From Bifidobacterium sp. (lineage in GTDB: Bacteria > Actinomycetota > Actinomycetes > Actinomycetales > Bifidobacteriaceae), in the NCBI RefSeq assembly GCF_022647885.1, contig NZ_JALCLM010000001.1:496001-560000 (forward strand): a stretch of 64,000 nucleotides of DNA. Reading direction: 5' to 3'. Below, in pieces: positions 10,601 through 28,013 of the stretch; position 1 is the first letter of the stretch; the number at the start of each line of letters is the position of its first letter. The notes beneath the pieces were generated by a model. The model did no database searches. It saw only the letters and a list, made by a program, of their open reading frames with translations, and was not told where the DNA came from. The translations under genes were made by a program, and so were the position numbers.

Positions 10601-13600
10601 ATCCCCACCAGTACCAAGAGCATTACCCTGATGAGGTTGTTCAGGGGTCCAAATCTTCACCCGATGCTGGTAAGAACCCACCACGGGAGCGTTCAAGGTC
10701 TTGCTACGGAAGGTCACACCACCCAGATGACCACCGATAGCCGATGCAGGCACGGGCAGCCTCCCAGTCGTATCCACTTTCTGAACTGCCGTGCCGTCAT
10801 GTGTGTCGGTCTGCCATATCTCGACCTGATACTGCGTGTTCGCGGGGATATTACCGGTTAAGGTCACCTGATCAGAGATGTGCATGTCATCCAACCACAA
10901 CGGTTCCGTACTCACCGTAGAAGCGCGGATCACGTCGAAGGACTCATCATCATCCCAGCCCAGTGCGGTGGACGTATAGGTGACAGTCTGCCGATCCGAC
11001 TGGGAGTAGGCTCCGCTGGTACCGCCATACCAGACGATATCCTCATTGCGATTCTCAGGATTCGTGCCCTTACCTGCCGTAGTGGTGGGCATCGTGACCT
11101 TCACGCGATAGTAGTATGTCGACGCATCCCAATCAGACGGGACAGTGAAGGTCTCGGACTTGATGTTCTGATAGTTATCGAGATCGTCCGTGCCGACATG
11201 CGGATGCTCGGTATCAGGATCATCATTCTTACCCAACTGCGCCAGCTTGGGCAAATCGTGGGCGCTAAGAGTAGCGACGCGAGTATCCTTGCGTGCCCCG
11301 TCCCTAGACCAGATCTCGAAACTTACTTTCGCACCATCAGGAGTCTGAGCACTCTGACCATTCGTATACCCCTGCTTGCTATACGGTTCGTACGCGGTCT
11401 GATGCAACACGTCATACACCTGCACGGTCGCATCCTCATACGATGTTTCGTTCGATGAGAGCCATTTCTTGGACACCGTGGTGTCAAACTTCTGCACCGG
11501 CGTGCGCTCAAAAGATGTATAACCCGTCTCGTGATCAGCATTCCATTCGCCGTAATCATGCCTGTCAAGCACGCCACCCTGAGCGGTTCGTAACTCGGTC
11601 TGCCAATACACCATCCCTGCCTTATCCAACACGAAACTCGGATCGGTGACCTTCAACGTCAACTTGCCCGGACGATTACCCTGCTGCCCGGTCTTCAACG
11701 CTTCGAACAGATTCGTATCCAAGGTGATGGTTTTCGAGCCGAGCTTGTAGGTGCCGGAATTCCCGTTGTCATCATCACCCTGCCGGTACGCGGTCACCGT
11801 GACCGTGGAACCTTGCGGGATACGCCCGACCGTACCGCCGTCATTCGAATTACCCTCACCCTGATGCTCACGATTATCAGGACTCTCAGACTGCAACGAC
11901 TCGTCATACACCGTGATCTCGTCATACAACTGCTCGCCAACAGCACCAAACTTCTGCGCATTCGACGTGACAATCCCACCAGGAGCGATATGCACAGTCT
12001 CGGACGGCAAGCCAAGCTCATGCGAAGCAACTACCGTGCCATCAGCCGCACGCAACGTGGCTTTCCAAAACACGCTCCCGGCAGTATCTGTACTCGTCTT
12101 GGGAGAGGTGACAATAATCGGCTTGGTTGCCGAGTCGATAGCCTGAGCATCTGCAATGTCCACGCGCACTTCGTCAAGCAGCTTTGCAGCGTTGATGTCA
12201 GGATCACTCTGCACTGCGTTGTAGGCAGTAAAGGTGACGTAGGAACCTTTCGGCACTTGACCGGTGATAGTCGCGGTATCTTTGAACTGTTCGCCCGGCT
12301 TCGATATGCTCCGGCTTACCTGTGTCTCAATGGTTGGCATATGAACTTTGACAGATTCACCAGCGATACCTAGTTCGTGAGTGGCAAGCAGCAGACCGTC
12401 TGCACGGTATACGCCAGCTTTCCAATACACATTGCCTACGTTTGGCGTGGATATTTCAGGACTGGTTATGGTGAAGCTCGTTGACCATGATGAAGCATCT
12501 ATCTGAGCATCAGCGATATTTACACGGGCTGAATCCAAAAGCTTGCCAACTGAGGTATCAGGCTTGCCAGATACTGGATTATACGCATCGAACAACACAT
12601 AGGAGCCACGCGACAGTTTGCCTTCGATGGTTGCTGTATCACTGAATTTCTCGTTCACATAGGCAGATCCATTGCTGACCAGTGTGGTCACTGAAATGCC
12701 CCGCACCGTGACTGTCTCGGACTCGATACCCAACTCATGCGAATCCAACAACTCGCCCGCAGGATTCCACAGGCTCACTTTCCAGTAGACGTTCCCCGTT
12801 TTGTCCGTGCTTGTACTCGGACTTGTGACCTCAATCGGCTTGGACTGAGATGTAAGAATCTGTTCAGCGGTGACATTCACACGTACTTCATCCAGAAGCT
12901 TCGCTGCTCCCACACTCGGATTGCCTTTCGTTGCATTAAATGCAGTGAACGTCACGTATGAGCCTGCAGCTAGCGGACCGGTGATCTTCGCTACGTCGGC
13001 GAATGATTCGCCTTGTGCTACTTCGCTTTTCGTCACATTCGTACTGATTGTTGGAAGGCTCGGGGGTACTGCCTCCACGAAGGTGCGCTCCCACGGATCG
13101 TTGTATGCGCTCCTGAATGCCGGAGCGCGAGCAGAACCAGGAAAATCGTAAATAAATACGTAATAACCCGTCTCACTAGTATCATCAGCAATGATGTTTA
13201 CGGTGTTGGAAACAGTCTGCACACTAGAAGACCCATTTTCTTGCAGCGTGATCTTGCCGCCACCGATTTTATACACGCCATTACGTGCGGGAACCGTCCA
13301 CTCGCCAATCAGTTTATGATGTGCATCAGCAACTGGCTCAGCAGCTGATGTAGGCTTATAAGCTTCATCCTCGCTCTTAACACCTGTAGCACTACCAGCC
13401 CACCACACGCGAATCGTTGCGTCTGTATCCTTATCAAATCCGTAAGATCCACTACCATTGAATGTGCCGTAATCCTCCGGTAAACAACCTATCGTGACCG
13501 TATCCATAATGTCACGGTCAAGTCCAGAATACTGTTCGAGCACAATCGAATCATGTGCAATAGGACGGCGATGTGCAGCAGTCTCGGCAGGGATGCCAAA

Positions 13601-14929: not shown

Positions 14930-15528
14930 GCTTGTTCCTTTCACATTCTCGCCGACCTCAAGTAGGGCCGCGCAGTAAGGCAACTATGCACAAGGAACGA
15001 TGAAACAGCGACTGCTTTCTGTCTGTGTGGATAAATGGGGAACTCACCCACAAAGGCCAAAGGTCAAGCGTGGTGTTGCTACTGAACAAGTTTGACGGCT
15101 GTTCGCCAAATTCTTCATCCAAGCGGTTTTATTCATCGAAGGATTTTGTGTGTTGTTCGGGGAGTGTGCCGATGGTCTGTTCAAGTGTGGCCCAGTGAGC
15201 TGCTGGTCGGGTCTGCGGCACGTGGTGTAGACAGCAACCGTTCCGCCGAAGCAGCTAACCAATCTTGCAGCAAACCCGTTACTGGTGTCGATGTGGACAA
15301 GACACACAGATTCTCCATAGAGGTGATGAAATCCCTGCGACACTGCTTCGTGTTGACACCGTTGCCTCAGACTTGTATTATCTGCTAATAACACAAGGAG
15401 GTGTTAATTGATAACCGTAAAATGGTACCGGTACCATAATGTTTGAACGTTTATGGTAGATAATTTAAATGGAGGTAGTGCGCTTCGTCTAATCACCATT
15501 GAATGCCTGTAACAGTTAGGGAAATAAG
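14930..15528. other. 599-base intergenic region between surface protein and LacI gene
   Basis: This divergent region must hold promoters for both the surface protein (minus) and the catabolic cluster (plus). It contains one perfect DnaA box (TGTGGATAA, 15026-15034, probably chance), the candidate LacI operator at 15422-15437, and GGAGGTAG upstream of the LacI gene. Short open frames on both strands between 15044 and 15394 show no recognisable family and may be decayed DNA. I see no RNA gene here. Confidence 0.5.
15422..15437. promoter_or_regulatory. Candidate LacI-family operator (perfect 16-bp palindrome)
   Basis: ATGGTACCGGTACCAT is a perfect palindrome with a central CG step, the form usually bound by LacI-family dimers. 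It lies about 90 bases upstream of the LacI-type gene, just before a possible -35 TTGAAC (15443-15448) and -10 TTAAAT (15465-15470) with a 16-base spacer. Near copies occur inside the cluster at 17271 (13 of 16 bases) and 18481 (14 of 16). Autoregulation and control of the whole cluster are inferred. Confidence 0.6.
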
Positions 15529-16515
15529 ATGTCATACACCATCAGAGATATTGCGGAACGCGCAGGTGTCTCGAAATCAACTGTTTCTAGATACATCAAG
15601 GGTGAACGAAACAAGGTATCTTCCAAGACGCAGAAAATTATCGAAGGTGTGATCAAGGAACTGGACTATCGTCCCAATCAAATGGCGGTGGGTCTGGCTC
15701 GTAGACAGGCCCCACAAGTTGGCGTGGTGATGTCAGATATCGGCAATCCTTTCTCCTCCGTTGCTATGCGTGGCATTTTCGACGCGTGTACCGAAAGGAA
15801 CCATATGGTTTCCTTCGCACTTTCCAACGGCAGTCTCGGCAAAGAGCGAGAAGGCATCAAGAATTTACTGTCGTTTAATATCGATCGTCTGATTATCAAT
15901 ACATGTGGAGGTAACGATGATTTCCTTGACGAGCTCGACCCTGCGAAAACAGTAGTGATTGACCGTCCGTTGGCAGGCAGGAAATTCCATACCGTTACAT
16001 CGGACAATTTCGCGAGTACCTATGCGGCCATTGAGCGTCTACAGTCAAACGGATGCGAGTCAATAGCGTTCATTACGCCTGATATCGACTCGGTCACGAC
16101 CAGACAATTGCGGTACCAAGGATATCTGGCCGCTGTGCAAGGCAAACAGAAGGCTGCGCTCGTCTCATACACATCGCAGGACGATGCCTTTAGACAGTTG
16201 GACGCGGTGTTTGCGTCAGGTTCCTGCAACGGCGCATTCACGGTCAATGGCGAGGCGTTGAAAGTGCTACTCCGATACACCAAGTCCAAAGGCGTACGCA
16301 TAGGACGGGATATAGGGGTCGTGTCCTTTGAAGACTGGGATTGGATGGGGCTGACTTCCCCGACCATCACCGCCGTCAAGCAGGATTCGTACAAAATGGG
16401 GTATTACGCAGCCAAGGATCTGCTTGATGGGGATCTTGGCTCGCAGAACCTTCCCAATATCAGAACCATTTGTTCTGCCCTTGTCGAACGTGAGTCGGAC
16501 AGGGTTGAACAATGA
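15529..16515 (+). CDS. LacI-family transcriptional regulator of the sugar-acid cluster
   Basis: 328 residues. The N-terminal helix-turn-helix (IRDIAERAGVSKSTVSRYIKG) and hinge helix (NQMAVGLARRQ) are classic LacI family, followed by a periplasmic-binding-like sensor domain (VGVVMSDIGNPFSSVAM, DIGVVSFEDWDWMGLTSPTITAVKQD). It heads a run of eleven co-oriented genes for sugar-acid catabolism, so the effector is probably a pathway intermediate such as a keto-gulonate, but this is inference. A perfect palindrome about 90 bases upstream is its likely operator. E. coli controls its analogous yia operon with an IclR-type protein and ula with a DeoR type, so the regulator here is of a different family. 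Confidence 0.93.
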   Translation: MSYTIRDIAERAGVSKSTVSRYIKGERNKVSSKTQKIIEGVIKELDYRPNQMAVGLARRQAPQVGVVMSDIGNPFSSVAMRGIFDACTERNHMVSFALSNGSLGKEREGIKNLLSFNIDRLIINTCGGNDDFLDELDPAKTVVIDRPLAGRKFHTVTSDNFASTYAAIERLQSNGCESIAFITPDIDSVTTRQLRYQGYLAAVQGKQKAALVSYTSQDDAFRQLDAVFASGSCNGAFTVNGEALKVLLRYTKSKGVRIGRDIGVVSFEDWDWMGLTSPTITAVKQDSYKMGYYAAKDLLDGDLGSQNLPNIRTICSALVERESDRVEQ

Positions 16516-16554
16516 ACAAGGTGCCCTCAACGACACCGGATAAAGAGAACCACC

Positions 16555-16998
16555 GTGTTATGGACAAATGTGCACCACGTTGATGTGGATGACTACGCCA
16601 GGTTGCAACAGGCCATCGAGCTCCTGAAACATACAGATTGGTCGGTGCCTGCCAGCAGGCACATCGATCTTGATGAGCATTGTTTCGCACAGCTGTTGGA
16701 ATACAAAACGCAGGCCATCGAGAATATCGCTTTCGAGGTGCATCACCATCGACTGGATATCCACTACATCGTCGAGGGCGAGGAAACGATTCAGGTCAGC
16801 ATGGATCATCCCAAGGAGACCGAGTACCTCGAAGAAAGGGATCTGGCACATGTTGAGCCGCCTGAGAGCTGTAGCTCAATCGTCATGCGCGCCGGAGACG
16901 CACTGATCATCGGTATGGACGAACCGCACAGAACGAATGGTCTGGTGCGTGGCACAGCAAGCAACGTCAGAAAGGTCGTACTAAAAATGAAACATTGA
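16555..16998 (+). CDS. YhcH/YjgK/YiaL family protein, first paralog
   Basis: 147 residues starting at GTG 16555, 39 bases after the regulator stop. The DUF386 (YhcH/YiaL/EbgC) cupin-like family is recognised from FEVHHHRLDIHYIVEGEE, ERDLAHVEPPES, AGDALIIGMDEPHRTNG and KVVLKM near the C-terminus. Family members sit in sugar and sugar-acid operons; YiaL is part of the E. coli 2,3-diketo-L-gulonate operon and EbgC is a beta-galactosidase subunit. Anomerase or isomerase-type roles have been proposed. The conserved His cluster (HHHRLDIHY, EPH) probably binds metal. A second paralog follows at 17251. Exact substrate unknown. Confidence 0.88.
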   Translation: MLWTNVHHVDVDDYARLQQAIELLKHTDWSVPASRHIDLDEHCFAQLLEYKTQAIENIAFEVHHHRLDIHYIVEGEETIQVSMDHPKETEYLEERDLAHVEPPESCSSIVMRAGDALIIGMDEPHRTNGLVRGTASNVRKVVLKMKH

Positions 16999-17250
16999 TG
17001 TCGGGCACTTCCACAAAACAGTGATATCCGATATACCGCAGTTAGCCTCATGAAGACGCGTTTCATTCGCAAAGGAATGAGCCTGCATTCATGGTTAAGA
17101 CGCTCACGGCAGGATACACCAATTCGCATTGGATGCATTGGTCGACGCTGACCAATGACATCATTAAAACGCCTTGAACGAGGATGTTCATAAAGGCAAT
17201 GGCACTCTGGCGCCGCATGCCAGGGAACAGTGATTCAAAGGAGAATTTAA

Positions 17251-17715
17251 ATGGAAAACGGCAAAGGAATATGGTACCGACACGATCCGAAGGTCCGTCA
17301 ACGTATCGATACGGCAATCGCATACCTCACATCGCATGAGGACGAGCTGTTGGCGAAGCCGGTAGGCAAGTACCCTCTCGCCGAGGGGATCGAAGTCCGT
17401 GTGCAGAGCTACGACTCGCGCGAATACGACACGATGGTGTACGAGACGCATCGCGATCATATCGATCTCCACTACATGCTTGACGGGCAGGAATATGTGC
17501 GTTGGTGGGACAAAGGCGTTGTGGAACCAAATTCCGAGTACGACGAGGTGGAGGACATCATCTTCTACCCCCACCCACCGCAGCACAACCGCGCCTTGCT
17601 AAGCAGCCACCATTACGTGTTGGTGTATCCGGAAGACATGCACGCAGCCCACGGCATGGTTGACGGGAAAGTCAGTCATAACCACAAAGTTGTCGTCAAG
17701 ATCTCCGTGCTCTGA
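17251..17715 (+). CDS. YhcH/YjgK/YiaL family protein, second paralog
   Basis: 154 residues with a strong AAAGGAG 8-9 bases before the ATG. It shows the same family pattern as the gene at 16555 (YETHRDHIDLHYMLDGQEYV, IIFYPHPPQHN, VYPEDMHAAHGMVDG, KVVVKISVL), but the two differ widely in sequence, so this is an old duplication or two separate acquisitions rather than a recent tandem copy. About 250 bases without a gene separate them. A near copy of the candidate operator (17271-17286) lies in its first codons. It is followed after 35 bases by the permease. Confidence 0.88.
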   Translation: MENGKGIWYRHDPKVRQRIDTAIAYLTSHEDELLAKPVGKYPLAEGIEVRVQSYDSREYDTMVYETHRDHIDLHYMLDGQEYVRWWDKGVVEPNSEYDEVEDIIFYPHPPQHNRALLSSHHYVLVYPEDMHAAHGMVDGKVSHNHKVVVKISVL

Positions 17716-17750
17716 TCCCTGGTTTCGATGGAATTGTTAGGAGAATATTC

Positions 17751-19115
17751 ATGGTGCAGATAATCATAGGCGTACTGCTTCTGGTCGCCTTCTTCGGCCT
17801 TATCGTATATGCGTTCCGTGGCGGAAATCTGATGTTGGGCATGCTCATCATGGCCATCATTTGGGCGAGCCTTTCGATCATCGGGTTCCTCACGATCAAA
17901 GATCCGAGCTTCGTCAGCGCGAACAAGGCTCTCATTAATACTTCCTTGGCTGATCATCTCAAGGCCGTATTCCAGTCTGGTCCGGAAAGCTGGGGCCCGA
18001 CCCTGGTGAACTTCATCTTCGGCGCATGGTTCGGCCGTGTGATGTTGAAGACCGGCATCGCTTCCAAAATCATCAAACTCACGGTTGAACTCGGCGGCGA
18101 TAAGCCTGTTGTCACCTCAATCATGCTGTCGATCGTTACCACCTTCGTATTCTCGAGCATGTTTGGTGCAGGAGCCGTGGTCGCCATTGGCGTCATCGTC
18201 TTCCCGATCCTGCTCTCCCTAGGCATCCCGAAGAAAACAGCCCTGGTATCCTTCATGTTGGCGGTCGGCGCCGGTCTGTATATCAACCCGGTCATTTTCT
18301 CGCAGTACAAGATGTTCTATTTGGATTCCAACGGAAACGAGACGGTCTCCTACGACTCCCAGTACCTTCAGTGGGGTTTCATCGCGCTGGCAGTCCAATT
18401 GCTGATAGCGATCATCTACACCATCGTTTTCTCGCGCAAGAAGCGTCAAGTGCATCAGTGGGCTTCACCCATGCCTAAAAATGGTACCGGTGCCACTGAA
18501 GGCAACAAAGTTCCAGGCATAGCCTTGATCACGCCTTTCGTGCCGGTCGTGCTGGCCATTGCCTTCGGACTCCCAGTTATTTTCGGTTTCCTTGTAGCAG
18601 GATTCTTCGCGCTAGCCGTATGTGGTTTTATGCGTACTTGGAAGGGCACTGCTGAGGTGTTCAACAAGACTTTCTACGACGGCGTTATTGACACAGCGCC
18701 GCTGATGGGCTTCATGCTGATCATCCCTATGTTCAATGCCGCTTCCAGCCTCGCAGTGCCTTACTTCCAGTCGCTGTTGGGCGGGATCATCCCGAACTCC
18801 ACACTGGTCGTCGCCCTAGCTTTCGCCATCATCGCGCCACTTGGACTGTTCCGTGGCCCGTTGACATTGGCTGGCGCGGGGTCGGCCACATTGGGCATTC
18901 TCAAGAGCCTGAACTTCAGTCCTCACTTCCTCTTCGCTCTGATGTACGCGCCGACGGTGACGATGAACATCTCCAGCGATATCACCCAGTCCTGGATTAT
19001 CTGGGGCATTAACTACACCAAGGTCGAAACAAAGGACTATCTGAAGTCCTCGGCGCCGACCGGTTGGATCATCACCGCGATTCTGAGCGCCGCCACCTTC
19101 TTCATCTACGGATGA
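17751..19115 (+). CDS. Multipass organic-acid permease (GntP/citrate-transporter-like)
   Basis: 454 residues, almost entirely hydrophobic, with about 11-12 membrane segments. Features that recall the ion transporter/GntP-like superfamily are LVNFIFGAWFGRVMLKTGIASKI, the reentrant-like TTFVFSSMFGAGAVVAIGVIVFPILLSLGIPKKTA, and the second-half repeat APLGLFRGPLTLAGAGSATLG. TTAGGAG precedes the ATG. Its place between the YiaL-type genes and catabolic enzymes suggests it imports the sugar acid that the cluster degrades, replacing the TRAP transporter (yiaMNO) or the PTS (ulaABC) of the E. coli pathways. The substrate and ion coupling cannot be read from the sequence. Confidence 0.8.
   Translation: MVQIIIGVLLLVAFFGLIVYAFRGGNLMLGMLIMAIIWASLSIIGFLTIKDPSFVSANKALINTSLADHLKAVFQSGPESWGPTLVNFIFGAWFGRVMLKTGIASKIIKLTVELGGDKPVVTSIMLSIVTTFVFSSMFGAGAVVAIGVIVFPILLSLGIPKKTALVSFMLAVGAGLYINPVIFSQYKMFYLDSNGNETVSYDSQYLQWGFIALAVQLLIAIIYTIVFSRKKRQVHQWASPMPKNGTGATEGNKVPGIALITPFVPVVLAIAFGLPVIFGFLVAGFFALAVCGFMRTWKGTAEVFNKTFYDGVIDTAPLMGFMLIIPMFNAASSLAVPYFQSLLGGIIPNSTLVVALAFAIIAPLGLFRGPLTLAGAGSATLGILKSLNFSPHFLFALMYAPTVTMNISSDITQSWIIWGINYTKVETKDYLKSSAPTGWIITAILSAATFFIYG
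18481..18496. promoter_or_regulatory. Possible auxiliary LacI operator inside permease gene
   Basis: ATGGTACCGGTGCCAC matches the upstream palindrome at 14 of 16 positions, keeping the CCGG centre. It lies in a hydrophilic loop of the permease coding region. It could be an auxiliary site or a chance match. Confidence 0.3.
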
Positions 19116-19166
19116 TCGCAGGTGCGCGTCGAAATGGAAATCGAATCGAGAAAAACGAGGTAAATC

Positions 19167-21296
19167 ATGGCACGACGACTTGTACGAATGGGAATCGACG
19201 TCGGTGGAACCAACACCAAATGCGTTGCAATAGATAACAACACCCATGAGATCATCGGAAAAGCTTCGGTCTTCACCACGCATGACGACAAGGCCGGAGT
19301 TGCCACCGGAGTGGTCGACTGCTTCCAGCAATGCATGGAGAAGAACGGCATCTCCCCGGAGGAAGTGGTATTCGTCGCGCATTCCACGACCCAGGCTACG
19401 AATGCGCTGCTCGAAGGGGATGTCGCCAACGTGGGCATCCTGGGCACGGCCAAGGGATGGCTGTCTTCGATCCTGACCAAAAGTCAGTTGCATCTGGACG
19501 ATATCGATCTTGGCACCGGCCGTCAGATTCATATTGTGGATGAGTTCATCAATAGCAAGAATCTGACCACCGAGTCCATCAAAAAGGCTTTGGCGGATAT
19601 GGGTGCCAAAGGAGTGCAAGTTGTCGTTGCCAGCGCGGCTTTCGGGGTTGACGGCGACGATTCGGAACGAACCATAGCCGATATCTCCGATGCCGAAGGA
19701 TATCCAGCCACTGCGGCGTCGGAGATCACCAAGATGTACGGGCTGGCCAGACGCACCAGAACCGCCGCCATCAATGCCAGCATTCTTCCCAAGATGCTTG
19801 ATACGGCTGAGAAAACCGAAAGTTCGGTTCGCGCCACCGGAGTGAATGTGCCACTGATGATCATGCGTGGTGATGGCGGGGTCATGGACTTCGAAGAGAT
19901 GAAGAAGCGCCCGGTGTTGACGATGCTCTCCGGTCCCGCCGCATCCGTGATGGGTGCTCTGATGTATCTTCGTGCATCCAACGGTATGTATTTCGAAGTT
20001 GGCGGCACCACCACGAACATCGGTGTGATCAAGAATGGTCGTCCTGCCATCGACTATTCGGTGGTCGGAGGCCATGAAACTTTTGTCAGCTCCCTTGATG
20101 TGCGTGTGTTGGCGGTGGCGGGCGGCTCGATGGTCAGAGTGAACAAATCAGGTGTGGTTGATGTGGGTCCGCGATCGGCCCACATCGCGGGTTTGGATTA
20201 CGCGGTCTTTACGAATCCAGAGGAAATCGTGAATCCGCAGATGGAGCTTTGCCAACCCAAGGAGGGCGATCCCTCGGATTACGTCAAGATCAACCTGGAA
20301 AACGGCTCAAGCGTCACCATCACTAATTCCTGTGCGGCGAATGTTCTGGGTTACGTCACGAAAGGGGATTATTCCTACGGCAGTCCGGAGGCCGCGCGTA
20401 AGGCGATGGAACCAGTCGCTGCATATTGCGGATTGAGCGTTGAGGAGCTGGCAAAACAGATTCTCGCGAAATCTTACGAGAAGATCGAAAGCTGCATCAA
20501 TGCCCTGGCCGAGAAATACAAGCTGTCGCATGAGCAGATCTCGTTGGTTGGCTGTGGCGGCGGAGCTGCATCGCTGCTCCGCTACACCGCTGAGACCTTG
20601 GATGTGAAATACATGATCCCGGAGAATGCGGAGGTCATTTCGTCCATCGGGGTGGCGCTCGCCATGATCAGGGATGTGGTCGAACGTGTGGTGCCGACAC
20701 CCTCCGCAGAAGACATCAGATCGATCAGAGAAGAAGCCACTGCGCAGGCGATCTCGTCCGGTGCTGCACCGGAAACCATCGAAGTGCACATCGACATCAA
20801 CACGCAGGAGTCGAAACTCACCGCGATTGCTACTGGATCGACAGCCGTGCAGTCGCAGGATTTGCTCGCAGCAGCGAGTGACGATGAATTGAAACAGATC
20901 GCAGCCGACGATATGCGTCTGCCGGTTGCGGAGGTCACCTTAGACACTGGAACTGATTTCATCAAGGTGTTCACTGCGCAGAAGAACGACACAACCTCCG
21001 TGCGCATCATCGATAAGAAGGGATTCATCAAGGTTCAGCGTGATGGGGCGAGGATCGAGAGCACCACGGTCGGGAAGTATCAGGATACCGTGCGGCAACT
21101 CTACGATGATCTTGCCGTCTATATGTCTGATGCAGTGCTTCGTCCATACTTCTATGTGTGTCTCGGAGGCAAAGTGATGGACTTCGATGGCAGCAGTATG
21201 GACTATGAACAGCTGCTGGTGTTGATGGATGTCGAATTCGGCGATGCCGAGCCGGACCAAGATATCATCATCGTTGCGGCGAAGAGCACGATCTGA
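19167..21296 (+). CDS. Hydantoinase/oxoprolinase (HyuA-type) ATPase-fold protein
   Basis: 709 residues. The N-terminus RLVRMGIDVGGTNTKCVAID and HSTTQATNALLEGDVANVGILG are the phosphate-binding ASKHA motifs of HyuA/5-oxoprolinase proteins. LMIMRGDGGVMDFEEM, LSGPAASVMGALMY, FEVGGTTTNIGVI, LVGCGGGAASLL and ENAEVISSIGVALAMI continue the family pattern. About 170 C-terminal residues after 540 form an extra domain. Family members couple ATP to ring opening or carboxylation (hydantoins, 5-oxoproline, acetone), usually with a HyuB partner, which is absent here. ATP-dependent opening or activation of a lactone or similar substrate is an inference. The next gene's ATG overlaps its stop (TGATG), so the two are coupled. 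Confidence 0.88.
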   Translation: MARRLVRMGIDVGGTNTKCVAIDNNTHEIIGKASVFTTHDDKAGVATGVVDCFQQCMEKNGISPEEVVFVAHSTTQATNALLEGDVANVGILGTAKGWLSSILTKSQLHLDDIDLGTGRQIHIVDEFINSKNLTTESIKKALADMGAKGVQVVVASAAFGVDGDDSERTIADISDAEGYPATAASEITKMYGLARRTRTAAINASILPKMLDTAEKTESSVRATGVNVPLMIMRGDGGVMDFEEMKKRPVLTMLSGPAASVMGALMYLRASNGMYFEVGGTTTNIGVIKNGRPAIDYSVVGGHETFVSSLDVRVLAVAGGSMVRVNKSGVVDVGPRSAHIAGLDYAVFTNPEEIVNPQMELCQPKEGDPSDYVKINLENGSSVTITNSCAANVLGYVTKGDYSYGSPEAARKAMEPVAAYCGLSVEELAKQILAKSYEKIESCINALAEKYKLSHEQISLVGCGGGAASLLRYTAETLDVKYMIPENAEVISSIGVALAMIRDVVERVVPTPSAEDIRSIREEATAQAISSGAAPETIEVHIDINTQESKLTAIATGSTAVQSQDLLAAASDDELKQIAADDMRLPVAEVTLDTGTDFIKVFTAQKNDTTSVRIIDKKGFIKVQRDGARIESTTVGKYQDTVRQLYDDLAVYMSDAVLRPYFYVCLGGKVMDFDGSSMDYEQLLVLMDVEFGDAEPDQDIIIVAAKSTI

Positions 21297-22081
21297 TGAG
21301 CAACCCGTGGAGGCACCTCGGTGAAGACCTCAAATCGAGTTTCTCTGGAATGCCAGGATTGACGACGATCCCTGGGGTGACGCAAGTGAAAGTGCGGGCG
21401 TGTTCGGCACGTGAACTGCTCGACCAGACCATGTCGTTGCCCCAGGAGGCCTTTCAATGGCACATGCTGTCGAACGACCCACTGTATGAACGCTATAGCG
21501 ACGAGCAGCGTCGCGAGATCATCGCTTTAGCGGCAGGAGTGGGGCAAAAATACGCCGACGAAGTGCTTGCCTTGGGTGGTGATCTGGACGACGTATTGGG
21601 CCACTATGACATCGCCTACGACGAACAAAGCAAACCGCTTTCGGCGGACAGAGTGGTGTTCGCGCAGTATGTCGAGCCCAATGCCGTCACCGTATTCACT
21701 GACACGTTGGACAAGTATCAGCGATACAGCGAATGTCAGGACAATGAACACGACATGAGTCGTGACGCAGTGCGCGAAGTGTTGATTGCGCATGAACTGT
21801 TTCACTATCTCGAACACCGCGATGAGCGAAGCATCGTTACCAAGAACTACAAGACCACGACGCATCGAGCGGGTCCGCTACGGCTGCGATCCCGAGTTGC
21901 GGCGATGAGCGAGATCGCAGCCATGTCCTTCGCCAAGGGATGGCTGGGTCTCGACTATTCGCCCAATGTATATGACGTCCTGCTTGTGCGCCTATACGAG
22001 CCGGATGCGGCCACGATGATCCTCGACAATATCCGTGAAGTTTACCAAGACAACAATCCGCAGGCCATCAAGGCCGTATGA
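21296..22081 (+). CDS. Unrecognised protein with HExxH zincin-like motif
   Basis: 261 residues, no signal peptide or membrane segment, so cytosolic. I do not recognise the family with certainty. It contains LIAHELFHYLEHRDE, a HExxH motif, and about 50 residues later AAMSEIAAMSFAKGWLGL, whose Glu could be the third metal ligand of a gluzincin-like site. It could be a metallopeptidase or a metal-dependent hydrolase adapted to a small substrate. It overlaps the HyuA-type stop by 1 base and the next frame at its own end, so it is embedded in the operon and translationally coupled to the HyuA-type protein, suggesting a joint function. Confidence 0.75.
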   Translation: MSNPWRHLGEDLKSSFSGMPGLTTIPGVTQVKVRACSARELLDQTMSLPQEAFQWHMLSNDPLYERYSDEQRREIIALAAGVGQKYADEVLALGGDLDDVLGHYDIAYDEQSKPLSADRVVFAQYVEPNAVTVFTDTLDKYQRYSECQDNEHDMSRDAVREVLIAHELFHYLEHRDERSIVTKNYKTTTHRAGPLRLRSRVAAMSEIAAMSFAKGWLGLDYSPNVYDVLLVRLYEPDAATMILDNIREVYQDNNPQAIKAV

Positions 22082-22098
22082 AAGAAGTAGGAGCAATC

Positions 22099-23055
22099 AT
22101 GGGAAAAAAGCAAATATTGGTCACGGGAATCGTTCCCAGGGAAGGTCTCGACGAGCTGTTCGAGCGTTTCGACGTCACCTACACGCAGGATGAACCCTTC
22201 TCACGGGCTTGGGTGCTGGACCATGCGAATCATTACGATGGCATGATTCTTATGGCACAACGAGGAGACAAGGAATTCATTGATGCGTGCGATCGCCTGA
22301 AGATTATTTCCCTCAACGCGGTGGGATACGACCATGTGGATACAGCGTATGCCAAAGAACACGGTATCGCGGTAGCCAATTCACCTCAGGCAGTACGTAT
22401 TCCTACTGCGGAACTGACATTCAGTTTATTGCTGGCCGCGGTGAAGCGGCTGCATTTCTACGATGCCACCGTACGTGAAGGTGATTGGTTCGATGTATCC
22501 GAACGCCGTCTGCAGGGGCGTACCCTTCATGGTCTGACGTTGGGAATCTTCGGCATGGGACGCATCGGTAAAACCGTTGCTGAATATGCGACAGCTTTCG
22601 GTATGTCGGTGATTTACAACGATTCGCACCACCTTGATGCCGACACTGAGGCACGCACCGGATACCGTTATGTGGAATTCGATGAATTGCTGAAGCGTTC
22701 GGATGTCATCACGATTCATGCACCGGGTCTGCCCTCCACAACGGGATTGTTCGATGCGGCCGCATTTCAGGCCATGAAGGATGACGCCTACATCATCAAC
22801 GCCGCCCGCGGCCCGATCATCAACCAGAATGATCTGATCACGGCGCTTAAGCAGGGCGACATCGCCGGTGCTGGTCTGGATGTGTTCGAGACAGAACCGA
22901 ATATTCCCGAAGCATTGCGTGAGCTGCCCAACGTCATCATGTCTCCACATGCGGGGACGGGAACGGTTGAAGGGCGCATCGAACTTGCCAAGGAGGCTGC
23001 GAACAACATCATCAGCTTCTTCGACGGTACGCCGGTAAATGTAGTCAACAAGTAA
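22099..23055 (+). CDS. NAD(P)-dependent D-2-hydroxyacid dehydrogenase
   Basis: 318 residues from ATG 22099, chosen because AGGAG lies 6 bases before it; an in-frame ATG at 22078 would add 7 residues and overlap the previous gene. The family signature is complete: TLGIFGMGRIGKTVAEYA (GxGxxG Rossmann site), catalytic Arg in NAARGPIINQ, Glu in VFETEPNIP and His in SPHAGTGT. It reduces a 2-keto acid to the 2-hydroxy acid. In this cluster the expected reaction is 2,3-diketo-L-gulonate to 3-keto-L-gulonate, done in E. coli by the unrelated YiaK (DlgD). The substrate is inferred from context only. Confidence 0.9.
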   Translation: MGKKQILVTGIVPREGLDELFERFDVTYTQDEPFSRAWVLDHANHYDGMILMAQRGDKEFIDACDRLKIISLNAVGYDHVDTAYAKEHGIAVANSPQAVRIPTAELTFSLLLAAVKRLHFYDATVREGDWFDVSERRLQGRTLHGLTLGIFGMGRIGKTVAEYATAFGMSVIYNDSHHLDADTEARTGYRYVEFDELLKRSDVITIHAPGLPSTTGLFDAAAFQAMKDDAYIINAARGPIINQNDLITALKQGDIAGAGLDVFETEPNIPEALRELPNVIMSPHAGTGTVEGRIELAKEAANNIISFFDGTPVNVVNK

Positions 23056-23115
23056 GCCACGTGTCTGAGATCGCCGATCGCTGATGTGCCAGACGCTTTT
23101 CGGTTGGGAGTGTGT

Positions 23116-24147
23116 ATGGAATTCCAAAAAATATTTGCAGATGAGTTGGATCATGGATATGCGGTGATGCGGCTGCATGAGCAGGGCAGAGATTTCGTCC
23201 TGATCGCATCCGAGGAGAATAAACCTTGCTACGCCTATGATTTGGACAACCATTACCGCAGAATCACAGTGTGGAATGATGTCGGTGGCACCATGACCAT
23301 GGTGCAGATCCCCGGTACGCTTGATTTTCTTGCCACGCAGCGCTTCTATCCGGGGTTCAATTCCGCCGCATGCCGGATCGTCCGCGCACATTTCAATGGT
23401 GTGGACTGGGACCTCTCCGAAGTGGCGCAGATGCCCTATATTCATCGTTTCGACATCATCGAACATGATGGCGGCTTCCGCTTTATTGGGTGTTCCATCG
23501 CCAATTCCAAACAGGATACGGATGACTGGTCCGATCCTGGGAAGGTATTCGTGGGTATGTACGACGAGCAGAAGAATATTCTGCAAGACGTACATCCCCT
23601 GGACGTGCGAATCACCAAGAATCATGGATACCGCAGAGGCGACGGGACATACTCATTCATCACCGGAGCTGAAGGGATCTTCAAACTGCTGTATCCGGCT
23701 GACGGAGCTGGATGGCGCATTGAACGAGTGGCAGACAACGAGACGAGTGACATGGCCGGAGTTGACGTCGACGGTGATGGTAGGAAGGAATATCTGGCGA
23801 TTCAAGGATTCCACGGATGTCATCTGCGTTTGTACGACGATCATTTCAACACTATCGCTGTCTCAAATAGACAAACGCCGTTCGGACACGCGATCGATGG
23901 TGTGACGGTGTCGGGGGAGACCTTCTTCCTCTTCGGATATCGCGACGGCAAACAGGAGCTGGAACTCGTGACGCTCGACGATGGGACATTGAAGGAGACC
24001 GTCATAGATTCCGGCGTCGGCCCCAGCAATGTGCTCGTGTATCGCAAGGCAGGTAAGGATTATCTGCTGAGCGCCAATCGCGAGAAGAACGAGGTGGCCA
24101 TCTACCGTATATCCAGCACAGCGCCCGGCAACATGGATGCGGAGTAG
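23116..24147 (+). CDS. Cytosolic beta-propeller-like protein, function unknown
   Basis: 343 residues from ATG 23116, chosen for the GGGAG 5 bases upstream. There is no signal peptide. The sequence is rich in short beta strands and aromatic turns; GVDVDGDGRKEYLAIQ has the DxDGDG form of a calcium-binding FG-GAP/VCBS-type blade, and HAIDGVTVSGETFFLFGYRDGKQELELV, FITGAEGIFKLLY and GPSNVLVYRKAG look like further blades. Cytosolic propellers in sugar operons are sometimes lactonases or isomerases, but no catalytic signature is clear to me. It sits between the dehydrogenase and the kinase, 60 bases and 3 bases from them, so it is part of the transcript. Confidence 0.7.
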   Translation: MEFQKIFADELDHGYAVMRLHEQGRDFVLIASEENKPCYAYDLDNHYRRITVWNDVGGTMTMVQIPGTLDFLATQRFYPGFNSAACRIVRAHFNGVDWDLSEVAQMPYIHRFDIIEHDGGFRFIGCSIANSKQDTDDWSDPGKVFVGMYDEQKNILQDVHPLDVRITKNHGYRRGDGTYSFITGAEGIFKLLYPADGAGWRIERVADNETSDMAGVDVDGDGRKEYLAIQGFHGCHLRLYDDHFNTIAVSNRQTPFGHAIDGVTVSGETFFLFGYRDGKQELELVTLDDGTLKETVIDSGVGPSNVLVYRKAGKDYLLSANREKNEVAIYRISSTAPGNMDAE

Positions 24148-24150
24148 ATT

Positions 24151-25710
24151 ATGGAACCGCACTCACCACGAAGATACCTGACCCTTGACAATGGGGGAAC
24201 CAATACCAAAGCGCTGCTGTTCGATGACGAAGGCAGGATGTTGGCGAAGAGCTCCTTTGCAACGGATTGGATACAGCCCCAGCCAAGCATGAGAGAGATT
24301 GATCTGCATACGCTCAAAGATTCCATATTTTCAGTCATTCGAACTGTTCTCTCGAATGCGGGAATCAGCGGATCTGAAGTGGACTGCATTACCTGCGTGG
24401 GGCATGGCAAAGGACTGTACACGCTTGACAAAACCGGGAGGGTACGTCACCGCGGGATTTTGTCCACGGACAATCGGGCCAAGGCATTGACCACCGAATT
24501 TGAGCGGCGCGTGGAGACGATCTATCCGATAAGCTCTCAACACGTGATGCCGAGTCAGGCACCGGTGCTGTTGCGTTGGTTGAAGGAACACAGTCCGGAC
24601 GTCTACAGCGACATAGGCACGGTATTCTCCGCCAAGGACTTCGTTCGTTTTCTGTTATCTGGGGACATTCACCAGGAGATTGCCGACGCATCGGGCAACA
24701 ATCTGGTGAATCTGCACACCAGGGAGTATGACCCCAGACTGTTCGAATTCTTTGGCATCGACGAAGCACTTGACTGGATGCCTCCTCTGGTGGAAGCGGA
24801 ATCCTTGGTTAGCTCGGTTGACTCGACGGCGGCTGCGCAAACGGGATTGACCGAAGGAACCCCAATCACCGGTGGGCTGTTTGACATCGATGCGGGGACT
24901 CTGGGCATGGGGGTCCTTGATACAAGCCGTTTCGGAATTATCGCCGGCACATGGAATATCAATGTGTATCCGGTTGCAGAGCCGTGCGCTTGCAAACCGG
25001 GAATCATGAACTCCCTGTTTGCCGCACGGCAGATACTGACCGAAGCATCAAGTCCGACCTCCGCGGGGAATCTGGATATTATACTCAGGCTTCTTATGCC
25101 GGATCGTTTGCAGCTTGCGCAAACAACAGGCACAGCAATCTATGACGAGCTTGAGCGTGTATTGAATGCCTCGCGCGGGGAGCCGTCGCCGGTGGTGTAT
25201 TTCCCCTTCTTGTATGGCAGCAACAGTGATCCCTACGCGTCGGCAGGTTTTCTGGGTATCGATAGCACGACTACTCGTGAACATCTGATTATGGCGGTTT
25301 ACGAGGGAATCGTCTTCGCACATCGGCAGCATATCGACCAGCTGCGTGCAGTCTGTGCGGGCATGCCGCCCGTGGCGCGCGTTTCTGGAGGAGCGGCAAA
25401 TTCTGCGGCCTGGATGCAGCTGTTCGCCGACGTATTGAAGATTCGTATAGAAACACTGCGGCAGAAGGAGAGTTCAGGATTAGGTGGCGCCATCGTATCA
25501 GCGGTTGCGACAGGCAGATACCCCTCATTGATCCAGGCGGTGCGGCACATGGTGGAGGTCGCCCATGCTTATGAACCCGACGAGGTCTCTGCTGCGCGAT
25601 ACGCGGAGAAATATGACACATATCAGGATATGCTCGGCGCTCTTTCCGGTCATTGGGATGGGCGCAACGGTGCCGTCGGCACCAAAGCAACAACGGAAAA
25701 CGAGGTGTAA
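24151..25710 (+). CDS. FGGY-family carbohydrate kinase (L-xylulose/3-keto-L-gulonate kinase-like)
   Basis: 519 residues, normal for FGGY kinases. The N-terminal phosphate loop LTLDNGGTNTKALLFDDEGR, the CVGHGKGLY segment, SAKDFVRFLLSGD, TGGLFDIDAGTLGMG and VARVSGGAANSAAWMQLFADVLK with SSGLGGAIVSAV are classic. LyxK (L-xylulokinase), the E. coli counterpart in the yia operon, also phosphorylates 3-keto-L-gulonate, which would feed the decarboxylase two genes downstream. That specificity is an inference from gene order. It starts 3 bases after the propeller stop and is followed after 2 bases by the epimerase. Confidence 0.88.
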   Translation: MEPHSPRRYLTLDNGGTNTKALLFDDEGRMLAKSSFATDWIQPQPSMREIDLHTLKDSIFSVIRTVLSNAGISGSEVDCITCVGHGKGLYTLDKTGRVRHRGILSTDNRAKALTTEFERRVETIYPISSQHVMPSQAPVLLRWLKEHSPDVYSDIGTVFSAKDFVRFLLSGDIHQEIADASGNNLVNLHTREYDPRLFEFFGIDEALDWMPPLVEAESLVSSVDSTAAAQTGLTEGTPITGGLFDIDAGTLGMGVLDTSRFGIIAGTWNINVYPVAEPCACKPGIMNSLFAARQILTEASSPTSAGNLDIILRLLMPDRLQLAQTTGTAIYDELERVLNASRGEPSPVVYFPFLYGSNSDPYASAGFLGIDSTTTREHLIMAVYEGIVFAHRQHIDQLRAVCAGMPPVARVSGGAANSAAWMQLFADVLKIRIETLRQKESSGLGGAIVSAVATGRYPSLIQAVRHMVEVAHAYEPDEVSAARYAEKYDTYQDMLGALSGHWDGRNGAVGTKATTENEV

Positions 25711-25712
25711 CG

Positions 25713-26582
25713 ATGAATTCACTAGGAATATACGAGAAAGCCCTGCCGAAGGTGGAATCTTGGCAGGAGTGCTTCGCGACGGTGCGTGACCTGGGATTCA
25801 ATTTCCTGGAGTTCTCGGTTGACGAGAGTGACGAAAGATTGGCGCGTCTTGAATGGACTCGTTCGCAGCGCGAATTGTTCAGAGATGCCGCCTGGCATTC
25901 CGGTGTACGGGTGCATACCCTGATGCTCAGCGGGCATAGAAGGTTTCCTCTAGGCTCTGCCGATCCTGTGACCAGGGAGAAGAGCCTCACCATGCTGTAC
26001 CAGGCCATCGATCTGGCTTACGACTTGGATATCCGCAATATTCAGATGGCGGGTTATGACGTGTACTATGAACCCAAAACTGTGGAATCCAGGGAATGGT
26101 TCATCGAGAACCTGAAAAAGGGCGTGGAATACGCCGCATCCCGTCAGGTCATGTTGGATATCGAGACCATGGATGATCCTTTCCTGAACTCTGTACGCAA
26201 GATCAAGGCCCTTAAGACGCAGATCCACAGCCCATGGCTTCAGGTGTATCCGGATCTGGGAAATCTCACCGCCTGGCCCGATAACAATGTCGGCGCCGAG
26301 CTTGAGTCGGGAATCGACAATATCGTCTCCATACACCTCAAAGACACTAAGCCTGTGACCGCCACCGAGCCAGGTGAATTCAGGGACGTTCCGTTCGGCG
26401 ATGGAACGGTCGACTTCGAGGGATGTCTCAGAACATTGCACCGGCTCGGATACACAGGTGCCTTCACCATCGAGATGTGGACCCAGCAGGCCCCGGATCC
26501 CATCTCGGCCGTTCGTAAGGCAAAAGCGTATTTTGCTGAGATATTCAAGAATGTCGGCATTGAGCAGGAAACGCTGCGTTAA
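25713..26582 (+). CDS. L-xylulose/L-ribulose-5-phosphate 3-epimerase (UlaE/SgbU-like)
   Basis: 289 residues from ATG 25713, 2 bases after the kinase stop (GAGGTG overlaps that stop region). The TIM-barrel xylose-isomerase-like family is clear: MNSLGIYEKALPKVESWQE at the N-terminus, FNFLEFSVDESDERLARLEW, CMLSGHRRFPLGS-like SGHRRFPLGSAD, QMAGYDVYYE, MLDIETMDD with a metal Glu, LQVYPDLGNLTAW, SIHLKDTKP and FTIEMWTQ. UlaE and SgbU convert L-xylulose 5-phosphate to L-ribulose 5-phosphate, the step between the neighbouring decarboxylase and 4-epimerase. All three lower-pathway enzymes follow each other here. Confidence 0.93.
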   Translation: MNSLGIYEKALPKVESWQECFATVRDLGFNFLEFSVDESDERLARLEWTRSQRELFRDAAWHSGVRVHTLMLSGHRRFPLGSADPVTREKSLTMLYQAIDLAYDLDIRNIQMAGYDVYYEPKTVESREWFIENLKKGVEYAASRQVMLDIETMDDPFLNSVRKIKALKTQIHSPWLQVYPDLGNLTAWPDNNVGAELESGIDNIVSIHLKDTKPVTATEPGEFRDVPFGDGTVDFEGCLRTLHRLGYTGAFTIEMWTQQAPDPISAVRKAKAYFAEIFKNVGIEQETLR

Positions 26583-26632
26583 GCAATGCCAATAGAGCGC
26601 CGCAGCTTTCGCGGCCCGGTGGGAAGGAAGGG

Positions 26633-27259
26633 ATGATGATGAAATTACAGGTTGCCATCGATCGTGTGGATCTGGCCAAGGCCGAAGAATTCGTTCGTGA
26701 GCTGAGGGGCGAGGCTGACATCATAGAAATGGGCACTTCGCTGACGATGGAGTTTGGAGTGCGTAGTCTGGCTCCGCTGGTGAGTTTGGCGGGGGACACT
26801 CCGATGCTGGGTGATATCAAGACCTGTGATGAAGGCGCATACGAATTCGATACAGGGTTCTCATGCGGATTTTCATACCTCACGGTTATGGGAGCTGCAT
26901 CAATCGAGACCGTGCGGACCTGTTACGAGTCCACGGCACGGCACGGCAGGCGGATGATGATCGATCTGATCGGGTGCGATGAGGAACGCGTCACCATGTT
27001 GTCGGAGTTCTCCGATGCCATCTTCTATCTGCACACGTCAATTGATGCGCCGCAGCCTCCCAGCCCACTCCAGGAGATACGTGCCTTCAAGCGCGACTTC
27101 CCTTCCGTGAGACATATTGCTATCTCTGCTGATGGGAATCTTGAAGAAATAGGTGATCTTTCGCGCGAGGGGGTCGAGATTCTGATCATGGGGCCGACCA
27201 TCAATGCCGCGGCGGACCCGAAGGCAGCCTGCCGATCTGTAATGGCTAGATGGCGCTGA
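26633..27259 (+). CDS. 3-keto-L-gulonate-6-phosphate decarboxylase (UlaD/SgbH-like)
   Basis: 208 residues. The orotidine-decarboxylase-superfamily barrel is shown by LQVAIDRVDLAKAEEFV, IIEMGTSLTMEFGV (catalytic Glu), MLGDIKTCDEGAYE (the DxKxxD catalytic motif), and the C-terminal phosphate-binding strands IAISADGNLEEI and ILIMGPTINAAADP. Hexulose-phosphate synthases share the fold, but the neighbours (UlaE-like epimerase upstream, AraD-like epimerase downstream) favour keto-gulonate phosphate decarboxylase, giving L-xylulose 5-phosphate and CO2. Three ATG codons stand in tandem after GGAAGGAAGG; the true start may be the second or third. Confidence 0.9.
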   Translation: MMMKLQVAIDRVDLAKAEEFVRELRGEADIIEMGTSLTMEFGVRSLAPLVSLAGDTPMLGDIKTCDEGAYEFDTGFSCGFSYLTVMGAASIETVRTCYESTARHGRRMMIDLIGCDEERVTMLSEFSDAIFYLHTSIDAPQPPSPLQEIRAFKRDFPSVRHIAISADGNLEEIGDLSREGVEILIMGPTINAAADPKAACRSVMARWR

Positions 27260-27320
27260 GGTGTGGCAGTAAACAATGTGCTATGAGAAGTGAATCGTTT
27301 TTTAAAGGAAAGGAACAACA

Positions 27321-28013
27321 ATGGTGTCGTTAGCTGATTATTCGGATGTGGTGCGTGCTGAGGTGAAGCAGGTGCGCGAGGTGGTGTCTGGGTTACATGG
27401 GCAGTTGTTGAAGTGGAATCTGGTGGTGTGGACGGCGGGTAATGTGTCGCAGCGTTTGCGTTCGGCTGATTTGATGGTGATCAAGCCTTCGGGTGTCAGG
27501 TATGAGTTTTTGACACCGCAGTCGATGGTGGTGACGGATCTGGAGGGTAATGTGGTCGATGGTGAGCAGGCGCCATCGTCTGATACAGCGTCGCACGCAT
27601 ATATCTATCGGCATATGCCCGAGGTGTTTGGCGTGGTGCATACACACTCGACGTATGCGACGGCGTGGGCTGCTGCCGGTAGGGATATTCCGTGTGCGTT
27701 GACGATGATGGGTGATGAGTTCGGTGGCCGTGTGCCGGTTGGTCCGTTCAAGTTGATTGGTTCGGAGGCCATCGGAGAGGGTGTGGTGGAGACGCTGGCT
27801 CGTTTTCCGAAGTCGCCGGCGGTTTTGATGCGTAATCATGGGCCGTTTGCGGTGGGTGTTGATGCGGAGTCGGCGGTGAAGGCAGCGGCAATGACGGAGG
27901 AGGTGGCTCGTACGGTGTGGGCGGCGGAGCAGTTGGGTGGTGCGGTTGAGATTGCTCAGCATGATATCGACAGCCTCAATGATCGCTACCAAAACATCTA
28001 TGGACAGCATTAA
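27321..28013 (+). CDS. L-ribulose-5-phosphate 4-epimerase (AraD/UlaF/SgbE-like)
   Basis: 230 residues. The class II aldolase/epimerase fold carries the substrate site NLVVWTAGNVSQRL and KPSGVRYEFL, the zinc ligands VVHTHSTYA (His about 107 and 109) and MRNHGPFAVG (His about 173). The family converts L-ribulose 5-phosphate to D-xylulose 5-phosphate, which enters the phosphoketolase (bifid) shunt. AAAGGAAAGGA precedes the ATG. Its coding strand is visibly richer in G and T (gtg, tcg, ggt codons) than the genes upstream, which hints at a separate origin. It is the last intact gene before mobile-element debris. Confidence 0.93.
   Translation: MVSLADYSDVVRAEVKQVREVVSGLHGQLLKWNLVVWTAGNVSQRLRSADLMVIKPSGVRYEFLTPQSMVVTDLEGNVVDGEQAPSSDTASHAYIYRHMPEVFGVVHTHSTYATAWAAAGRDIPCALTMMGDEFGGRVPVGPFKLIGSEAIGEGVVETLARFPKSPAVLMRNHGPFAVGVDAESAVKAAAMTEEVARTVWAAEQLGGAVEIAQHDIDSLNDRYQNIYGQH

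Follow-up and report, generated by a model that had tools for sequence, protein, structure and literature searches.

The window analyzed here is a stretch of 64,000 nucleotides (positions 496001-560000, numbered from 1 below) of the 2.34 Mb single-contig genome of a Bifidobacterium species. It holds a run of named genes, from a LacI-family regulator through a UlaF-type epimerase (15529-28013), that all lie on the plus strand. Three adjacent genes in this run are our main subject: a membrane transporter (17751-19115), a HyuA-like protein of 709 residues with Hydant_A_N and Hydantoinase_A domains (19167-21296), and a protein of 261 residues that we call HELFH after its HExxH motif (21296-22081). 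The last two open reading frames (ORFs) overlap by one base. This transporter-HyuA-HELFH trio, the cassette, is very likely a real biochemical system, and we found no assigned function for it. A sequence-only reading of the window had grouped HyuA and HELFH with a propeller-like protein as a block of three ORFs (19167-21296, 21296-22081, and 23086-24147). These ORFs are indeed co-directional and tightly spaced, but a fourth gene (22078-23055) lies among them; as a unit, the HyuA-HELFH pair is conserved, whereas the transporter had been missed and the propeller-like protein belongs to an ascorbate-operon family.

The window HyuA scored 81 bits against PF05378 and 207 bits against PF01968, both above the cut-offs, and its likeness to solved HyuAs lies mainly in residues 1-340. 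It is the only PF01968 protein found in the genome, and a search for PF02538 (HyuB) that was positive in 6 of 14 control genomes found none in the whole genome, which bears out the earlier description of a lone HyuA without HyuB. HELFH gave no significant match in Pfam, NCBIfam, or the PDB sequences, the last returning weak matches only. Its predicted structure points tentatively to an IrrE/PprI-like zincin fold, and a Foldseek search at E ≤ 0.001 gave nothing informative; the underlying alignment had 68 rows after removal of the split or cut genes of L055, L068, L071, and L073 and of some near-duplicates. Residues H166, E167, H170, E206, and F212 are invariant in 70 aligned rows. When broken genes are included, HExxH is kept in 80 of 81 rows and E206 in 77 (three gaps and one K). 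HELFH looks like a zinc hydrolase and would presumably bind zinc.

To describe the cassette elsewhere, we scanned named genomes with a HyuA alignment and analyzed the best 80 of at least 559 relatives. Together with seven plasmid loci these make 87 loci, which vary in length, so that all counts of gene context are lower bounds. The 80 scan loci belong mostly to Bacillota, many of them gut Clostridia and Enterococcus, and also to Synergistaceae, Chloroflexota, Treponema, Olsenella, an Acholeplasmatales, and a betaproteobacterium. Judged by the family profile, 78 of the 80 have a HELFH gene downstream of HyuA, at a distance of up to 1.6 kb; in L033 the contig stops at HyuA, and L020 has no HELFH gene. 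HELFH is present as short frames only in L126. The plasmid search yielded eight records with HyuA relatives of 38-41% identity over 81-99% of the length, and the HyuA rows ranked after those eight, among the best 20 of 729 records, were at most 29% identical. Five of the seven plasmid loci have HELFH, those of Selenomonas (L006) and Deinococcus (L011) do not, and a tblastn search of plasmids with HELFH as the query returned nothing informative. The haloarchaeal loci (L005, L007-L009) and the locus of a Streptomyces (L010) have a small HExxH gene after HyuA and, next to the two, a relative of the window transporter. The distances between sequences also agree: over 70 of the 80 loci (L020, L033, L034, L050, L055, L067, L068, L071, L073, and L075 were left out), pairwise HyuA and HELFH distances correlated with r 0.80, a value reached by none of 2000 permutations, and HyuA and transporter distances with r 0.83. 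Second, more distant HyuA-HELFH pairs were seen in L107 (genome G066) and L108 (genome G062), where one pair was already present; their HyuA pieces are 39% and 33% identical to the window HyuA.

The transporter cluster is represented in 83 of the 87 loci, mostly immediately upstream of HyuA, and the window transporter is part of the conserved unit, even though it has no Pfam or NCBIfam match of its own. With the transporter as a third fixed member, and with catabolic neighbors that by eye vary by clade around a constant cassette, HyuA and HELFH might be an ATP-driven unit that energizes or gates the transporter, and not catabolic enzymes. This seems very unlikely to us: the transporter looks like a secondary carboxylate carrier, judging from a weak DcuC match of one relative (L130), and would need no ATPase, and the characterized HyuA-type proteins are enzymes.

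The pairing was examined separately in 299 genomes drawn evenly from the phylum of G059, the genome of locus L018, with up to three scored candidates per genome in the HyuA search and up to nine in crowded genomes in the HELFH search. The HELFH profile hit 16 places in 14 genomes. A HyuA of the subfamily lies within about 4 kb of 14 of these places (ten inside a 1.5 kb flank, four farther out); of the other two, one sits at the end of a contig and the second is a marginal hit (E 8e-4). Conversely, the window HyuA found 16 full-length matches of 527-947 bits in 14 genomes, and the next-best scored match had 146 bits and covered the N-terminal half only. Both genes occur in 13 genomes, HELFH alone in one, HyuA alone in one, and neither in 284 (Fisher p ~1e-20). 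The HELFH-alone genome is a marginal match, and in the HyuA-alone genome (G100) the gene is 379 bases from a contig end. Chance adjacency is excluded by these separate searches. A general habit of HyuA proteins can be set aside as well: 146 of the 299 genomes have some HyuA match at 1e-15, the subfamily is in 14 of them, and among the 132 genomes whose HyuAs are outside the subfamily HELFH occurs in one, as a marginal match (G157, E 8e-4). The genome counts and the 78 of 80 loci show that the two genes do co-occur in other genomes, so that the observation named by the earlier reading as its refutation, a pair that never occurs together elsewhere, clearly fails to hold; in haloarchaea as in several phyla of bacteria, the two are found nearly always together and with their order unchanged. 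Carriage is limited, with the cassette in 14 of the 299 genomes drawn from this one phylum.

We next compared the nucleotide site of HyuA with that of the caprolactamase subunit CapA. According to the available portion of the CapA paper (PMC8453981), mutation of D11 or D295 strongly lowers product formation, D18 is modelled as holding magnesium at the alpha-phosphate, one lysine (Lys32) is strictly conserved, and D302 is close to the gamma-phosphate and to a tunnel toward the zinc subunit CapB. In our alignment, the phosphate-1 aspartate of the GGT loop (column 11) is D in 16 of 16 other HyuAs, in 12 of 12 D18-type subfamily rows, and in 82 of 82 K18-type rows, the type to which the window HyuA (K18, N284) belongs. 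Column 18 is D in the 16 other HyuAs and the 12 D18-type rows and K in 82 rows; the remaining subfamily rows have H (two) or a gap (two). Column 34, presumed to be CapA Lys32 (CapA itself is outside the alignment), is K in all 16 other and all 12 D18-type rows and in none of the 82. Column 284 is D in all 16 and all 12, and N in 74 and D in 8 of the 82; column 277 is D in the 16 other HyuAs and E in the 82 K18-type rows. The adenosine motif GxxPGP does not distinguish the group, being found in 0 of 82 K18-type, 0 of 12 D18-type, and 0 of 16 other HyuAs. Set against the roles of the CapA residues, these differences indicate that the window HyuA group has altered several ATP-site residues together.

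In a tree of 45 HyuA rows that included five other HyuAs, the subfamily forms one clade, within which the 26 K18 rows used make up a clade of their own (support 98/94). That K18 arose once is shown only with the Deinococcus HyuA of L011 (K18, N284) set aside; that HyuA was omitted from this tree and lies at the root of an 88-row tree on a very long branch. Of 12 loci with a D18-type HyuA, 11 (six on plasmids, and L129-L133) have an FAD_oxidored-like protein beside it; no such gene was found by BLAST (1e-8) in any of the 80 scan loci, from 6 kb upstream to 7 kb downstream within the limits of the contigs.

Lysines of the K18 kind occur in kinase loops. One could suppose that HyuA is a phosphotransferase or an ATP enzyme of its own, with K18 in its phosphate-1 loop, and that HELFH is an independent hydrolase, for lactones or amides for instance, that serves another step. 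The K18 of all 82 rows, where the 16 other HyuAs have D, would suit such a division of labor, as would the weak matches of the window HyuA N-terminus to BcrAD, FGGY, and MutL profiles, which are below the cut-offs. It does not, however, predict the strict HyuA-HELFH pairing, a kinase-type gene is often present already, such as the FGGY gene of the window and the KdgK-like genes of 15 of the 80 loci, and D18-type HyuAs pair with the same HELFH family; we consider it quite unlikely. The same kinase genes exclude HyuA-HELFH as the sole kinase of the pathway.

The strongest rival concerns HELFH, which might be an ImmA/IrrE-like regulatory protease that cuts HyuA, the transporter, or the GntR or LacI regulator in response to the substrate, leaving HyuA to activate the substrate alone. 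The predicted fold is compatible with such a role, and we rate it as possible, if rather unlikely. HELFH, however, follows HyuA in 78 of 80 loci regardless of the regulator nearby (GntR in 33, LacI in 21), the cassette showed no constant repressor of the kind that usually partners ImmA/IrrE, and no ImmA/IrrE (M78) profile match was listed for the 70 HELFH members at E ≤ 0.1 or for five proteins at E ≤ 10, HMMER filters applying.

At least one gene of a sugar-acid type lies near the cassette in 49 of the 80 loci. YhcH was counted in 22, a YiaK type in 21, KdgK-like in 15, KdgA-like in 12, HxlA-like in 10, UxuA in 8, and UxuB-like in 4; a SIS cluster that has HxlB-like members was counted, as PHI, in 12, and at least two of its members (L018 and L027) resemble RpiR-type regulators. 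The YiaK and HxlB labels are above NCBIfam cut-offs, with three tested YiaK-like proteins scoring 372, 454, and 361 against the cut-off of 316 for 3-dehydro-L-gulonate 2-dehydrogenase; HPS and KdgK are below theirs. Cluster representatives were checked with Pfam for UxuA (L024), M28, DHDPS, FAD_oxidored, PanE, and cyclase, and the KdgA, UxuB, and GntR cluster labels are presumed. By eye, the set of neighbors tracks the HyuA clade, and cassette substrates therefore probably differ between clades.

Several loci have neighborhoods of their own. HxlA/HxlB-like pairs stand with KDG-kinase-like and aldolase-like genes beside the cassette in L029, L031, L038, L041, L090, and others; for these pairs we considered formaldehyde fixation (the ribulose monophosphate pathway) or an isomerase-decarboxylase route for ketogluconates. 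In L123, L124, L127, L130, and L131 (D18-type, H18-type, or untyped) there are extra neighbors, including a NanE-like TIM-barrel protein; DUF4127 lies beside the L127 cassette, and an RraA-like protein, a PALP-family enzyme, and an amidohydrolase lie near those of L123 and L124. In Treponema (L058), a protein with a weak URO-D match follows the cassette, and another ORF of that appearance precedes it; the URO-D family includes methyltransferases. An M28-peptidase cluster gene is found nearby on the opposite strand in L037, L043, L047, L051, L052, L055, and L064, accompanied by varying sets of YhcH, SDR, or GntR genes.

A possible physiological parallel comes from Ruminococcus gnavus. In the accessible text of PMC11581127, the operon most induced by agarooligosaccharides (log2 change 4.1-4.4) is named as comprising a hydantoinase, a YhcH family protein, a mannonate dehydratase, a 3-dehydro-L-gulonate 2-dehydrogenase, a hypothetical protein described as a peptidase, and another hypothetical protein; table and discussion in that text disagree over which tag belongs to which enzyme, and the text gives the system no name. 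The operon resembles the cassette by gene names, and if the two ends given in the discussion are used, its tags would fit the order YiaK-transporter-HyuA-HELFH-YhcH-UxuA of L044 and L046.

In the window, the cassette is embedded in a longer set of sugar-acid genes. A promoter-like site (TTGACA-17-TATTAT, 15353-15381, plus strand) agrees with the consensus at 11 of 12 positions; by consensus match only, the region has 9 such sites and shuffled sequence an expected 11.6. A perfect palindrome, ATGGTACCGGTACCAT (15422-15437), lies 3' of it as a candidate operator found by pattern match, which we take to be of the LacI type. Copies with two mismatches (18481-18496, within the transporter gene) and with three (17271-17286) were noted; the three matches compare with 0.14 expected, and three or more occurred in 1 of 100 shuffles. 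The LacI-family regulator (15529-16515, from a domain search) is followed by two YhcH/YjgK/YiaL family proteins (16555-16998 and 17251-17715), YiaL itself belonging to the YhcH family. Downstream of the cassette, family searches identified a D-2-hydroxyacid dehydrogenase (22078-23055), which we propose as a stand-in for YiaK; by BLAST at 1e-4, none of the ORFs in the 87 loci was labelled a relative of it. After the propeller-like gene comes an FGGY kinase (24151-25710), probably of the keto-gulonate or L-xylulose type, whose best NCBIfam model is XylB, under its cut-off. UlaE- and UlaF-type epimerases are both confirmed above NCBIfam cut-offs: an L-ribulose-5-phosphate 3-epimerase (25713-26582, read here from 25713, the listed start being 25653; TIGR00542, 343.6 against 272) and an L-ribulose-5-phosphate 4-epimerase (27321-28013; NF005123, 362.9 against 251). 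Between them, a UlaD/HxlA-family decarboxylase or synthase (26633-27259) is tentatively assigned as UlaD by context, the sole model at E ≤ 1e-30 being HxlA, at 124.6 under a cut-off of 200. The HyuA and HELFH genes were not found in 26 other genomes of the genus, apart from one weak, stop-filled HyuA match, which suggests that the cassette was gained horizontally. Upstream of the operon, on the minus strand, a 2457-residue ORF (7610-14983) looks by eye like a surface protein, repetitive in sequence and ending in an anchor-like C-terminal tail.

The propeller-like protein (23086-24147; 353 residues, the start being nearer 23116 by its relatives) has no Pfam or NCBIfam match and only weak matches in a PDB sequence search. 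The sequence-only reading had seen no counterpart of it in keto-gulonate operons; its relatives do sit in ascorbate/keto-gulonate operons of Coriobacteriia. In the class to which Olsenella L072 belongs, such relatives turned up in 17 of 246 genomes, in one as weak fragments only; those of L179-L191 are 30-37% identical to the window protein. Genes of an ascorbate/GAT-type phosphotransferase system (PTS) adjoin the propeller-like gene in 12 of 13 regions, and UlaE- or UlaF-like genes were listed in 7 of the 13, ORF picking having hidden some genes. In L184, EIIC scores 355 bits on an ascorbate model whose cut-off is 380, thus falling short of it, and the propeller-like gene is followed by UlaG (570 bits, cut-off 306); L072 has the same UlaG-like gene in that place. 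The presence of both in these loci rules out the propeller-like protein as a replacement for UlaG. Such a PTS operon stands next to the cassette in two genomes (L072/L188 and L189), and in L072 a kinase, UlaF, and UlaE lie downstream of the cassette. Given its place in PTS/Ula operons, the propeller-like protein looks like an ascorbate-operon accessory that stands outside the HyuA pair.

Taken together, we tentatively favor, at somewhat less than even confidence, the view that the transporter, HyuA, and HELFH form a conserved module for the uptake and activation of sugar acids of the keto-hexonate type. The transporter would import a carboxylate, a keto-hexonate or its lactone, in unphosphorylated form. 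HyuA would spend a nucleotide, probably ATP, on activating a carbonyl, an enol, or the lactone of the substrate, and HELFH, as an IrrE-fold zinc hydrolase in the usual place of HyuB and perhaps in a physical complex with HyuA, would finish the hydrolytic step. The free keto-hexonate would then enter a catabolism specific to each clade; we infer that in the window it would be reduced by the 2-hydroxyacid dehydrogenase, phosphorylated by the FGGY kinase, and converted by UlaD, UlaE, and UlaF to a pentose phosphate, so that cassette and kinase would replace the ascorbate PTS and the UlaG lactonase. Import without phosphorylation is favored because cassette and kinase occupy the position of PTS and UlaG, and a search of the genome with the L184 UlaG gave no relative (its best match, at E 0.07, spans 66 residues and contains stops; a UlaG that is very distant could escape). 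More specifically, HyuA and HELFH could make up a two-component, ATP-dependent hydrolase of a new class, with an IrrE-fold zinc protein substituting for HyuB, that acts on lactones of keto sugar acids such as ascorbate; we regard this proposal as unlikely.

The sequence-only reading, in which HyuA and HELFH might form an ATP-dependent ring-opening or activation enzyme, is supported in part: the two genes do pair, while ring opening is a conjecture to which the changed ATP-site residues and the zincin-like HELFH model run counter. Several observations weigh against an uptake-and-activation module. L020, L006, and L011 have no HExxH gene, and HELFH may thus be dispensable. HELFH diverges fast (mean identity 30%, against 62% for HyuA), which is unusual for a subunit that holds a substrate, and the ImmA/IrrE-fold zincins of known function are proteases. 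The K18 group has lost residues that are conserved in other HyuAs, and its use of ATP may have been altered. None of the listed sugar-acid genes is near the cassette in 31 of the 80 loci; some of these contigs are short, and others hold only transporter, HyuA, HELFH, and GntR amid unrelated genes. Finally, the window genome has two UlaA-type PTS loci elsewhere (L195 and L196, at 233000-252000 and 2288000-2306000), one of them adjoining HPr- and EI-like genes, which makes uptake of ascorbate by a PTS possible; no UlaD, UlaE, or UlaF relative is among the genes listed alongside them.

HyuA-type subunits with metal-site partners are already known, and our literature searches turned up no account of a HyuA group coupled to both an IrrE-fold zincin and a transporter. 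Here, such a trio has stayed together in Archaea and in several phyla of bacteria; it includes a family without a name that resembles zinc hydrolases and a HyuA group whose nucleotide-site residues are altered, and it offers a testable case of a HyuA subunit with a new partner. The substrate of the trio may be relevant to the handling of ascorbate- or uronate-like compounds by gut microbes. A like-named operon shows strong induction in R. gnavus (PMC11581127). If the two-component hydrolase that we regard as unlikely were real, gut bacteria would have a PTS-free route for ascorbate-like compounds, and the D18-type HyuAs with an FAD oxidoreductase would represent an older form, in haloarchaea and other bacteria, with other substrates.

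Among known systems, the M78-type proteins PprI/IrrE, ImmA, and CapP share with HELFH the HExxH motif with a downstream glutamate and, tentatively, the predicted fold, but HELFH has no listed profile match and is linked to HyuA and a transporter. HyuA-DUF917 pairs with a permease, such as that on a Lactiplantibacillus plasmid (L092), likewise combine a non-HyuB partner with a transporter; their partner is of another family, and the HyuA of L092 matches 76% of the query at 29% identity. The Coriobacteriia PTS operons (L179-L191) have the same propeller-like family, but with PTS and UlaG (UlaG being scored for L184). The ATP-dependent hydrolases HyuAB, CapAB (caprolactamase, PMC8453981), and 5-oxoprolinase have in common with the window protein PF05378, PF01968, the GIDVGGT loop with D11, and the TTxATN motif, and they likewise join an ASKHA subunit to a probable metal-site partner. 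They differ in that no HyuB was found in the window genome, where the partner is a small HExxH protein, and in that the window group replaces D18, K34, and mostly D284, and has E for D at 277. The enterobacterial yiaKLMNO-lyxK-sgbHUE and ula operons, in the portion of PMC6958661 at hand, resemble the window operon in their YhcH/YiaL-type genes, kinase, and UlaD/E/F-type steps; where they have YiaMNO, or PTS and UlaG, the window has transporter, HyuA, and HELFH, and where the yia operon has YiaK, the window has the 2-hydroxyacid dehydrogenase.

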